From the IMG/VR virus record IMGVR_UViG_3300044695_003800, positions 1-23,185 of that record: DNA of 23,185 nt. The stretch is one strand, 5' to 3'. The position numbers and the translations under genes were made by a program. The notes beneath the pieces are model-generated. The model saw only the letters and a list, made by a program, of their open reading frames with translations, made no database searches and was not told the DNA's origin. Position 1 is the first letter of the stretch, and each line of letters starts with the position of its first letter. Source of the stretch: a virus. Positions 11,341-14,161 of the stretch are shown piece after piece.

Positions 11341-11434
11341 AAAAGGATTCTTTAGCGTCCCGATAGACTTTCTGTCCATTAGTTTAACTTATCCTGATTA
11401 TAAGTCACCTAGTGCGGTACAATCACTGTTATAT

Positions 11435-11878
11435 TCACTTCGTTTCGGATTCGTTCGTGACGCTCACTTCGAATGCGCGGTCCGGCATTGATCCGAGTAA
11501 GTTAATACTCACGCTCGCTTGTTCGCCAGCTTCACTCCAGCCAAACACAAGCGCGGAGCGTTTGGCAACGCTCCCGAGTATTTGCTCCCGTGTTGATTCG
11601 TCTTTTATCCCGTCCAAGTCATACCCATTGACGCGTTCAATCGTTGACGCGGCATCTTCGGCAAGCTTCGAACGAACGATTGCTGACAGCGCTTCCAACG
11701 ATTGAGTTTTCTTTTCAGTGCAAATCGTTTGCATTTGAGCCTTCATCTTTGTGATTCCCTCACGACTGGCTTTCGTCTGCAACGTTGCCTGCGATAGTTG
11801 CAAATCGTTTGCAATTGTCTTCCATTCCATCCCTGACAGGTACAGGGACTTTGCATGCTCCCATTGATCTTTCGTCAC
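11435..11878 (-). CDS. Helix-turn-helix protein, candidate terminase small subunit
   Basis: A 147-residue protein if read from GTG 11878; the frame is open to a GTG at 11959, but that extension covers two palindromes and looks non-coding (Trp/His/Cys-rich). The N-terminus has an HTH pattern: WEHAKSLYLSGMEWKTIANDL, then LSQATLQTKASREGI, as in phage terminase small subunits and related DNA-binding proteins. The rest is helical and ends in a short strand-rich segment. TerS selects the packaging site on phage DNA. The large subunit is not in this window, so a transcriptional regulator remains possible. Two copies of a 15-bp palindrome lie inside the gene. Confidence 0.5.
   Translation of the reverse strand: MTKDQWEHAKSLYLSGMEWKTIANDLQLSQATLQTKASREGITKMKAQMQTICTEKKTQSLEALSAIVRSKLAEDAASTIERVNGYDLDGIKDESTREQILGSVAKRSALVFGWSEAGEQASVSINLLGSMPDRAFEVSVTNESETK
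11719..11813. repeat. Two identical 15-bp inverted-repeat elements inside the TerS-like gene
   Basis: TGCAAATCGTTTGCA (6-3-6 inverted repeat) occurs at 11719-11733 and again at 11799-11813, 80 bp apart. On the coding strand the copies are read in different frames (one gives MQTIC, the other IANDLQ), so protein conservation cannot explain the identity. They may be binding sites for this HTH protein, as pac sites are in terS genes of several phages, or an operator pair. Confidence 0.6.
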
Positions 11879-11883
11879 GTTGA

Positions 11884-11940
11884 CTTTGTGCCACAAAGCA
11901 TGCCAAGCGTCCAAACAAAAACACCACAACCTGTTGTGGT
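11884..11940. promoter_or_regulatory. Two palindromes upstream of the TerS-like start
   Basis: CTTTGTG-C-CACAAAG lies at 11884-11898 (7-1-7) and ACCACAAC-CT-GTTGTGGT at 11923-11940 (8-2-8). Both are perfect and sit just upstream of GTG 11878 on the minus strand. They could be operators in the divergent control region between the minus-strand unit and the plus-strand genes from 12139, or hairpins in the leader RNA. The rest of the gap to 12138 is AT-rich; TTGCAA and CATAGT spaced 17 bases apart (about 12101-12129) may be a weak plus-strand promoter. Confidence 0.5.
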
Positions 11941-12138
11941 CCTTATCTTGCAACACCACTACATCTTGTATGCCACTTTATCGTTAAATTTCGCATTTTT
12001 ATTTGTTCCTAGGGTCATGACAGCACCCTGTTTTCCGATTTTGACGCTGTCTAGTTCAACCCTCCCATCACACTTTTCTCAAAATATTTCAAAATAAATC
12101 TTGCAAGCGACAGGCTTTCAGCCCATAGTGTGTCTGTC

Positions 12139-12318
12139 ATGAAGATCGCTCAGAAAACCAAGATTTGGAGAATCATCCGCAACCATTGCCCCGAGGCCTC
12201 GTTTTACGAGGTTATGGACATTCTCGAATACATCACCAAGAAAGCCAACGGCAAGTTCCCCGAGGCGAAGCGACTGGCGGATAACCCGTATCGGATTGCC
12301 GGCAGGGTATCTTGGTAA
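12139..12318 (+). CDS. Small basic helical protein, first gene of rightward unit
   Basis: A 59-residue protein from ATG 12139; a GTG three codons earlier is an alternative. It is basic and helical at the N-terminus (MKIAQKTKIWRIIRNHCPEA), then FYEVMDILEYITKKANGKFPEAKRLADN (quoted in part as FYEVMDILEYI and FPEAKRLADN). No known family is recognised. It lies just right of the divergent control region and so would be the first gene expressed rightward, a place often taken by small early regulators or anti-host proteins. Confidence 0.6.
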   Translation: MKIAQKTKIWRIIRNHCPEASFYEVMDILEYITKKANGKFPEAKRLADNPYRIAGRVSW

Positions 12319-12484: not shown

Positions 12485-12504
12485 ACCTCAACCCACTAAA
12501 TCCC

Positions 12505-12873
12505 ATGAACTATCCTGGATCAATCCCCGCAGCCTATCAATCCGCAGACTTAGAACGCGCCTATCGAATGGGCTGGAATCACGGCCATGGCATCGCTTGC
12601 CATAACGTCCCTGAAATTGGCGATAGAATTTGCCCATCCATTGATTGGGTAGGCTTGGGCAAAACCGTCACTTCCGAAAACATCGCCGAATATCACGAAT
12701 TGCTTTGCTTCGCCGCAGAATCCAATTCCCGAGACTATTCCCCGTTCGAATTCACCGCCCATGAATTCAACGAATCCGACGATTCCGAATCGCTTTGGGA
12801 GGCTTTCGAATCCGGCGTTGCCGATTCAATCCGAGAAGACCTGAAAGGCTATTCATACGCTGAATTGGTTTGA
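12505..12873 (+). CDS. Hypothetical small acidic protein
   Basis: A 122-residue acidic protein beginning MNYPGSIPAAYQSADLERAY, with RMGWNHGHGIACHNVP around residues 25-40 and an acidic, Glu/Ser/Phe-rich second half ending YSYAELV. The start is AAATCCCATG, the same TCCCATG context used by several genes to the right. Glu is coded almost only by GAA here. I do not recognise a family. A GAAA-tetraloop hairpin follows 12 bases after the stop. Confidence 0.65.
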   Translation: MNYPGSIPAAYQSADLERAYRMGWNHGHGIACHNVPEIGDRICPSIDWVGLGKTVTSENIAEYHELLCFAAESNSRDYSPFEFTAHEFNESDDSESLWEAFESGVADSIREDLKGYSYAELV

Positions 12874-12884
12874 ATGCCGAAACG

Positions 12885-12908
12885 CTGCCCATCGGAAACG
12901 GTGGGCAG
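12885..12908 (+). promoter_or_regulatory. Intergenic hairpin with GAAA tetraloop (H1)
   Basis: A 10-pair stem (CTGCCCATCG with CGGTGGGCAG, one G-T pair) is closed by GAAA. It lies 12 bases after one stop and 35 before the next ATG, with no U-tract, so it is unlikely to be a plain terminator. A leader containing AATCAATCC follows, leading into AATCCCATG. Confidence 0.7.
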
Positions 12909-12943
12909 AATTCGTCCGTCAAAATCAATCAATCCAAAATCCC

Positions 12944-13273
12944 ATGACAAAATCCGACGAAAAGTCTGTTCTCCGAAACGCAATCGCGACGCTAGGCAAG
13001 AATTCCTATTCTGGCCAATGGCTTGCCGATCAATTGCCGGCAATCGAATTCGCGATTGATTCCGACGAATGTCTTGAATGCCGGGCCTTAACATTTGCCG
13101 AATCGCGGCAACAAGCGGAGGCGATTCTCCGCAACGCAAAGGAACAGGCTGCGGCAATCGAAAAGGAATCGAAGGAACGCGCCGACGATTTATTCCGTCG
13201 CGCAAAGTCTGCAATCGAATTCGAAAAGGAACGCCTCCGCGATACCCTCCGCAAGTCTCTTTCTAGCCTTTGA
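12944..13273 (+). CDS. Hypothetical coiled-coil protein
   Basis: A 109-residue protein. The N-terminus (~1-50) contains a SYSGQWLADQLPAIEFAI segment and a CLEC pair. From about 53 to 104 it is a continuous charged helix rich in Ala, Glu, Lys and Arg (FAESRQQAEAILRNAKEQAAAIEKESKERADDLF in part), a probable coiled coil for self-association. Start context is AAAATCCCATG. No family is recognised. The coding sequence is rich in GAATC/GATTC words. Confidence 0.65.
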   Translation: MTKSDEKSVLRNAIATLGKNSYSGQWLADQLPAIEFAIDSDECLECRALTFAESRQQAEAILRNAKEQAAAIEKESKERADDLFRRAKSAIEFEKERLRDTLRKSLSSL

Positions 13274-13283
13274 TTCCCCGAGT

Positions 13284-13307
13284 CAGTCCATCGGAAACGA
13301 TGGATTG
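13284..13307 (+). promoter_or_regulatory. Intergenic hairpin with GAAA tetraloop (H2)
   Basis: A 10-pair stem (CAGTCCATCG with CGATGGATTG, one G-T pair) is closed by GAAA, exactly the 24-base size of H1 but with a different lower stem. A second small hairpin CGGCG/CGCCG (13311-13326) follows, then AATCAATCCCATG. Confidence 0.7.
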
Positions 13308-13346
13308 CATCGGCGAATTAACGCCGAATCAAAACCAATCAATCCC

Positions 13347-13592
13347 ATGAAACCTATCTTGTACCTTGCACCTCAATCAAAAGTCCGCCGTACCTATCCC
13401 CGCGCCAACGAATCCGCGCACTACGTTTCCGGCAATTCCCCGGAGCCGGTGGCGAAATGGTATTCGTCCCTTGAATCTGGAAAAGTTCACGTTTCCCTTT
13501 TCAATGGCGAGTATTTGACCGTTCCGACTGGCAAGGGTTATTTACTGGGAGTCCATGAAGTCGAAACACCGGCAATCCTTGCGCGCGCCTAA
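13347..13592 (+). CDS. Hypothetical small basic protein
   Basis: An 81-residue protein starting MKPILYLAPQSKVRRTYPRA. The second half is strand-rich: VAKWYSSLESGKVHVSLFNGEYLTVP, then GKGYLLGVHEVET. It could be a small beta-barrel or SH3-like fold, but no family is recognised. Start context is CAATCCCATG. A run of five CCCAT-type repeats separates it from the next gene. Confidence 0.65.
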   Translation: MKPILYLAPQSKVRRTYPRANESAHYVSGNSPEPVAKWYSSLESGKVHVSLFNGEYLTVPTGKGYLLGVHEVETPAILARA

Positions 13593-13593
13593 T

Positions 13594-13618
13594 CCCATCC
13601 CATTCCATCCCATCCCAT
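13594..13618 (+). repeat. Five tandem 5-bp CCCAT units running into a start codon
   Basis: Units are CCCAT, CCCAT, TCCAT, CCCAT, CCCAT; the last AT plus the next G makes ATG 13617. Because the local start context is TCCCATG, this is a microsatellite built from that motif and could vary in length by slippage without changing the protein. Confidence 0.75.
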
Positions 13619-13808
13619 GACCTTCATAGAAGCGTTGGAGAAAGCGTCCAAAACAGCGCAAAGGACGAAGTCCTTTAGACATGTCCTAGTTGAGAACTCC
13701 ATGTTTTCGGATTACGAAATTGCTTCGGACTTTGACCTAGAAAATTGGTTTCTTGGGAGCGAGCCGCTGGCCAGCTTCGGCCCGGACGGTGTGCGCATTC
13801 CTGAATGA
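13617..13808 (+). CDS. Hypothetical small acidic protein
   Basis: A 63-residue protein, MTFIEALEKASKTAQRTKSF at the start, then RHVLVENSMFSDYEIASDFDLENWFLG and a short end with FGPDGVRIPE. It looks like a helix followed by a compact acidic strand region. Unlike its neighbours, this gene has few GANTC words. The spacing to the previous stop is 24 bases, filled by the CCCAT repeat. No family is recognised. Confidence 0.6.
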   Translation: MTFIEALEKASKTAQRTKSFRHVLVENSMFSDYEIASDFDLENWFLGSEPLASFGPDGVRIPE

Positions 13809-13817
13809 TTCCTCGCG

Positions 13818-13843
13818 CCGTCTCATGGGCAACCGTGGGATGG
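13818..13843 (+). promoter_or_regulatory. Intergenic hairpin with GCAA tetraloop (H3)
   Basis: An 11-pair stem (CCGTCTCATGG with CCGTGGGATGG, three or more G-T pairs) is closed by GCAA, again a GNRA loop. Stem sequence is unrelated to H1 and H2. It starts 9 bases after a stop codon and precedes the 26-bp repeated leader. Confidence 0.65.
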
Positions 13844-13884
13844 GGCGGGCAATCAATCCCGATTCCCGATTCAAAATTAATCCC

Positions 13885-14082
13885 ATGACAACCCTTAGAA
13901 ACCTAATCATTTCAATTTTGGACGATGAAAACGGAATAAGTGAAGAGTCTTTTGCATTTTTGAATCAATTAGCAGAAACCGACGAGTCACTCCGTGATGT
14001 TGTTTTAATGGCCGATTGCTTCGCTGATCGCTTTTATTTGCACGAGTCGGACGCTGAAAACCTCAGGAACGCAAAATCCTGA
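13885..14082 (+). CDS. Hypothetical small acidic helical protein
   Basis: A 65-residue protein starting MTTLRNLIISILDDENGISE and continuing with SFAFLNQLAETDESLRDVVLMADCFADRFY (quoted in part) and a Glu/Asn end. It is helical and acidic, net negative. Such small acidic phage proteins may be inhibitors of host DNA-binding proteins, but there is no motif to support that. Start context is TTAATCCCATG. Confidence 0.6.
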   Translation: MTTLRNLIISILDDENGISEESFAFLNQLAETDESLRDVVLMADCFADRFYLHESDAENLRNAKS

Positions 14083-14095
14083 TTCCCCGCGAGAC

Positions 14096-14113
14096 GCTAT
14101 GCGAAAGCGTAGC
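14096..14113 (+). promoter_or_regulatory. Intergenic hairpin with GAAA tetraloop (H4)
   Basis: A 7-pair stem (GCTATGC with GCGTAGC, one G-T pair) is closed by GAAA; two more pairs can form beyond a single mismatch. It lies 13 bases after a stop and is followed by the second copy of the 26-bp leader repeat. Confidence 0.65.
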
Positions 14114-14161
14114 CTCCGGCGGCGAATCAATCCCGATTCCCGATTCAAAAAAAACCAATCC

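Follow-up and report, generated by a model that had tools for sequence, protein, structure and literature searches.

A 15-bp inverted repeat, TGCAAATCGTTTGCA, which a TerS-like gene carries twice within its coding sequence, is very probably a recognition element kept at the level of the DNA. The gene lies in the window, by which we mean the whole 23,185-nt stretch of viral DNA analysed here. Three lines of comparative evidence point to such an element, namely the DNA-level constraint on the repeat among relatives of the gene, the inverted repeats of different sequence that other lineages have in this linker, and the association of the repeat type with the HTH of the encoded protein. The features concerned are as follows.

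11435-11959, minus strand: host gene, encoding the TerS-like HTH protein, 174 codons
11759-11872, minus strand: HTH-coding region, residues 30-67, with model helices 30-41, 46-53 and 57-67
11799-11813, strand not applicable: site 1, the second identical copy, residues about 49-54, in HTH helix 2
11719-11733, strand not applicable: site 2, TGCAAATCGTTTGCA, with 6-bp arms and a 3-nt spacer, residues about 76-81, placed by the structure model where the long helix that follows the HTH begins
11702-11734, minus strand: frozen synonymous-codon block, from the M codon to codon +10
11884-11898, strand not applicable: third inverted repeat, of 6-3-6 geometry and other sequence, CTTTGTGCCACAAAG on the plus strand

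The duplicated repeat and its host gene

The initial annotation had pointed to the same 15-bp sequence at 11719 and 11799, and an exact search of the 23,185-base record confirmed both copies, 80 bp apart; the search of the rest of the record, which had been proposed as a check, gave no third exact copy. The match between the two copies extends beyond the 15-mer, with 18 of 19 bases identical. Although the sequence was called a palindrome, it is not a perfect one, since its inverted arms, TGCAAA and TTTGCA, are separated by a spacer that reads TCG on the plus strand and CGA on the gene strand. The spacing of 80 is 2 mod 3, and the minus-strand gene indeed reads the copies in different frames, as M-Q-T-I-C-T (11719) and I-A-N-D-L-Q (11799). 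The window has fourteen 6-3-6 inverted repeats, so that a single one is unremarkable; three of them fall within 180 bp here (11719, 11799 and 11884). A chance origin of the duplicated repeat was rejected by dinucleotide shuffles of the window, none of which (0/200) duplicated a 6-3-6 repeat; any 15-mer was duplicated within 200 bp in one shuffle of 200.

From the relatives, it is likely that the true start of the gene is the GTG at 11878 rather than 11959: in L005 a stop codon falls within the upstream part of the gene, and others such as L054 and L064 begin near the place equivalent to 11878. A terminator-like hairpin on the minus strand (11923-11940, ACCACAACAGGTTGTGGT followed by a T-rich stretch), upstream of the likely start, also supports a start later than 11959. 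The third inverted repeat, which reads CTTTGTGGCACAAAG on the gene strand, lies just 5′ of this GTG. A CTTTG..CAAAG repeat upstream of the gene is found in 17 of 60 type-A genes versus 1 of 70 others, and it is uncertain whether the 11884-11898 repeat is part of the same element as the two sites.

The model of the encoded protein (mean pLDDT 63) has the N-terminal HTH (30-67), then a long helix and then another helix. Its VIA structure matches include the HTH domains of GcrA, of Hin and of the G20c TerS (Z 6.0-6.6), and also those of transposases (Z about 6). The G20c match (6ejq, 88 residues at 8.1 Å, Z 6.0) came in the midst of unrelated HTH proteins in the ranking. Foldseek against the PDB and viral models gave nothing at E 0.001 or better, and a PDB sequence search with the protein gave no match. 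The window protein (P0001) scored 16.7 bits against Pfam Terminase_5, below the curated cut-off of 20.3; among 60 relatives, Terminase_5 was matched by 27 (E up to 0.1, best 3.6e-05) and the TerS-type family phrog_2606 by 21 (E up to 0.1), and the family searches also gave weak invertase and regulator matches beside terminase. The weak TerS-type matches agree with the TerS-like label of the gene, which is weakened by the low Pfam score and by a TerL gene that is not adjacent. The protein may be a small terminase.

Relatives were taken from environmental viral contigs, 80 in the first search and more through four profile searches, and 153 distinct genes, with distinctness judged on the last 420 nt, were extracted from 373 sequences. 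For the loci L083-L097 the motif itself had served as the query, and all such contigs except L092 were also found in the protein searches. The annotated phage collection gave no relative by DNA or protein, and none of 21 candidate stretches from prokaryote genome contigs was a relative. The exact site strings had no match in the literature collection searched, papers outside that collection not being covered.

Synonymous codons are frozen at site 2

It had been argued that two copies translated in different frames must owe their identity to constraint on the DNA. Two copies alone do not imply this, but for the 11719 copy the relatives now provide strong support. The residues M-Q-x-x-C are found at the site 2 place in 68 of the 153 distinct relatives, and both arms (TGCAAA-N3-TTTGCA) are kept in all 68, with a spacer that varies (CGA, CGG, CCG, CAG or TCG). 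C is followed by I, K or T, and every codon for these residues opens with A, the base that completes the arm. In a single gene, L023, I-V stands in place of T-I, and its site 2 is exactly the reverse complement of what the gene strand of the window reads there.

The lowest synonymous window of the gene also falls on site 2, at 0.041 of expectation versus 0.78 gene-wide, in 59 representatives with M-Q-x-x-C (53-92% nucleotide identity) that remained after three of the 68 genes, of other length, had been left out and the other 65 reduced at 95% identity. Expected synonymous diversity was based on the genes' own codon usage, and a freeze of this depth was reached in none of 10,000 column permutations, a procedure that presumes exchangeable columns. 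In the first synonymous test the class had been picked by the palindrome itself, and the later test, with its class defined by the protein, is the more trustworthy. The codons CAA, GTT or ATT, and TGC had no synonymous variation at all in the 59 representatives, and the spacer codon had hardly any. Codons +1 to +10 retain 0-0.37 of the expected synonymous diversity and codons +11, +12 and -4 to -6 are near 1, which delimits a frozen block of about 33 nt that extends over some ten codons after the M codon to a sharp edge, with variable codons on its flanks. In the window this block holds site 2 together with an A-rich tract, which lies on the 3′ side of the site as read on the gene strand. When the codons of the palindrome were left out, the six that come next gave the seventh lowest of 111 windows; the flank of site 2 is constrained, but not uniquely so.

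Site 1 and coding constraint

For the 11799 copy the case for upkeep at the DNA level is weaker. Both arms are present in 21 of the 25 genes encoding IANDLQ, and these codons overlap conserved HTH codons. Two copies are found in only 16 of the 153 genes, in all of which (16/16) the spacing is again 80. Synonymous constraint at 11790-11814 is also seen in relatives without the palindrome there (lowest window 0.34, P 0.012).

These observations at site 1, where the codons are part of the HTH and are constrained even without the palindrome, would suit an account with no separate element at all, in which protein constraint, codon bias, an overlapping frame or a recently exchanged short module produced the pattern; one antisense frame is moreover open over 150 nt in 38 of the 68 genes. 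However, the same frame is closed in the other 30 and no other ORF of at least 60 aa crosses both sites in the window, so that an overlapping gene is disfavoured, with no conserved open frame across the sites. Codon bias had already been allowed for in the expected diversity, and the frozen codons form a sharp block between variable ones. We consider this account very improbable, and keep to a separate DNA-level element.

Other lineages carry other inverted repeats

About half of the relatives are without the TGCAAATCGTTTGCA-type motif; in these the same linker holds other inverted repeats, among them TTACAGAAATTTCTGTAA, AGTTTC-N7-GAAACT, AATCTC-N7-GAGATT and ACTGTTTC-N7-GAAACAGT. In each of four groups (A-D), which were delimited by our own regular expressions, the longest inverted repeat in the 51-nt linker exceeded that in all 200 synonymous shuffles (observed versus shuffled, A 7.63 versus 5.04, B 7.6 versus 4.52, C 5.86 versus 4.19 and D 5.78 versus 3.84), as tested on distinct linkers (43, 15, 44 and 9) with genes lacking the landmark excluded. 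A control region of the same genes had no excess in B, C and D, and was slightly high in A, where 3 of 100 shuffles reached the observed value. Watson-Crick pairing joins the variable outer bases of the type C repeat in 38 of 56 genes (25 G-C and 13 A-T, with the amino-acid pairs V/T and I/I accordingly), a tally of sequences and not of independent events.

Such paired changes, together with loops of 3 or 7 nt, could also be expected of an RNA hairpin in the mRNA that acts on translation or stability. However, all six segments folded no better than their shuffles (z -0.64 to 1.34; the folded segment of L069 ends before the flank of its repeat does), Rfam gave no match at gathering scores, the DNA palindrome is variable at its innermost position, and type B repeats have no spacer. 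An RNA hairpin is thus disfavoured, and we regard it as highly improbable.

Between groups, the HTH part is about 50% identical on average, versus 86-90% for the C-terminal core. Among 142 distinct genes, the repeat type was predicted by the nearest HTH neighbour at 0.98 versus 0.62 for the core, and the partial r with repeat type was 0.48 for the HTH versus -0.006 for the core. This suggests that the HTH and the site may change together. Since the HTH and the linker are neighbours, hitch-hiking can mimic such an association, and the several recognition-helix types that occur with identical arms in group A argue against simple self-recognition. It is possible, but somewhat doubtful, that the HTH and a cognate two-fold symmetric site in the adjacent codons form a self-addressing specificity cassette, in which the specificity of the protein and the address on the genome would move and change as one on a constant core. 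If true, this would be a family whose TerS-DNA recognition codes could be read from sequence across lineages.

Identical arms across differing recognition helices would also fit a site for another phage or host protein, such as a replication initiation, recombination, partition or host nucleoid protein. An unrelated viral contig, L092, does carry six exact TGCAAATCGTTTGCA copies in three iteron-like pairs; within L092:7103-7369 the members of a pair are 20 bp apart, start to start, in an A-rich stretch between larger ORFs. No such array is found elsewhere in the gene-bearing records, however, and the repeat type tracks the HTH of the encoded protein and not its core. This alternative is unlikely in our view, and binding by the encoded protein itself is, with moderate confidence, the probable case.

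Genomic context

The gene is the first of a conserved series on the minus strand, in which it is followed by genes for a DUF5843 protein, a 412-415 aa protein, a 144-147 aa protein and a tail-fibre-like protein. A TerL gene next to the HTH gene, an arrangement that is common but not obligatory, was not found in the two records G003 and G006: the TerL match in G003 (phrog_2, E 1.4e-23) is at L098:3955-5706, with the HTH gene at about 35.2 kb, and the TerL homologue of G006 lies about 13 kb from the HTH gene. In the window, similar leaders, AATCCCATGA (CCAATCAATCCCATGA-like), stand directly before the ATG at 12493, 13335, 13605 and 13873 (12493-13888) and are a putative shared translation or promoter signal of the small early genes. 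A 52-nt direct repeat (13825-13876 and 14099-14150, 81% identical) spans AATCAATCCCGATTCCCGATTCAAAA.

The motif is present in at least one copy in 15 of the 34 gene-bearing records, and outside the gene in only two of them, G005 and G008. The G005 copy, TGCAAAGTGTTTGCA at L101:5765-5779, is inside a methyltransferase-like gene, and the methyltransferase-gene copy of G008 lies similarly far from the HTH gene, at about 9.8 kb; this extra site is probably incidental.

The initial annotation had proposed a packaging or autoregulation site. A DNA-level element nearly confined to the HTH gene in the 34 records supports this in part, with autoregulation the less likely of the two functions, as the sites are 65-145 nt past the likely start codon. 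As an operator, the element would let the HTH protein, or a dimeric regulator, bind the start of its own gene and block transcription. Symmetric sites fit a dimeric HTH regulator, they are at most about 160 nt from the likely start of a gene that is the first in its conserved order, an extra 6-3-6 repeat lies just upstream of that start, and the weak matches include GcrA and repressor-like families. On the other hand, the sites are within the coding sequence and not at a promoter, a simple scan of 11400-12200, in which other promoter types would be missed, gave no sigma-70-like promoter, and the window has no further exact copies that could form a regulon. An operator is thus quite unlikely.

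The ends of the contigs were also compared. Of 165 distinct contigs, 8 have an end in the first 250 bp upstream of the gene and 5 in the second 250 bp; the corresponding downstream numbers are 1 and 1, with more ends at 500-1750 bp. As a sign of genome termini these ends are uninformative. With regard to a circularly permuted, terminally redundant genome, as in headful packaging, two of ten long records have overlapping ends (G021, about 260 bp, and G022, 127 bp) and four (G002, G005, G007 and G023) end in one shared variable region, which has short repeated matches (L106:4200-8700). Taken together, the contig ends do not discriminate between packaging types.

A possible packaging site and comparison with known systems

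The best reading, which is tentative and to which we give slightly less than an even chance, is that the repeats make up all or part of a pac-like packaging-initiation site, to which the encoded TerS-like protein would bind. The HTH domains of a protein oligomer would bind the symmetric sites within their own gene, and the bound oligomer would then recruit TerL, with the first cut made nearby. We infer each of the three steps, namely binding by the encoded protein, the identity of this protein as TerS, and a purpose in packaging.

Evolutionary comparison alone predicts the site base by base, and the spacer, the arms and the HTH each have natural variants, which would provide ready-made matched and mismatched protein-site pairs if binding is confirmed. 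Synonymous-site conservation can thus reveal, without reads, a compact in-gene DNA signal in unculturable phages.

By analogy, the arrangement resembles the pac-in-terS class, and we do not file it as a member of that class. In phage P1, pac consists of repeated short elements, several hexamers, within pacA, the packaging-recognition gene; the likeness is in the repeated short elements inside such a gene. The HTH fold of the model is similar to those of GcrA (5yiu, VIA Z 6.6 over 48 residues at 1.7 Å) and Hin (1jj8, VIA Z 6.2 over 49 residues at 2.3 Å), but the match is limited to the HTH, and the window protein is without regulator or recombinase domains.

Of the known systems P22 comes closest: excerpts of PMC9611059 and PMC8022706 place the P22 pac inside its terS gene, and with P22-like phages the system described here would share a short sequence in the coding sequence of a (putative) packaging-recognition gene (PMC9611059, PMC8022706 and PMC7672466, in excerpt). 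The P22 pac in gene 3 (terS), however, is given in the first of these excerpts as a 22-bp asymmetric sequence (PMC9611059), whereas the sites here have symmetric 6-3-6 geometry; also unlike P22, the arms here are sometimes duplicated and are replaced by other inverted repeats in sister lineages. The same 2022 review (PMC9611059) calls the reading of the genome start site by small terminases unclear and controversial. In the SPP1/SF6 pac region, according to excerpts of PMC4737164, repeats at and in the small terminase gene are likewise proposed TerS contacts, with binding that is largely non-specific in vitro; those repeats are direct-repeat boxes across the promoters and the gene start, whereas the ones described here are inverted repeats within a linker.
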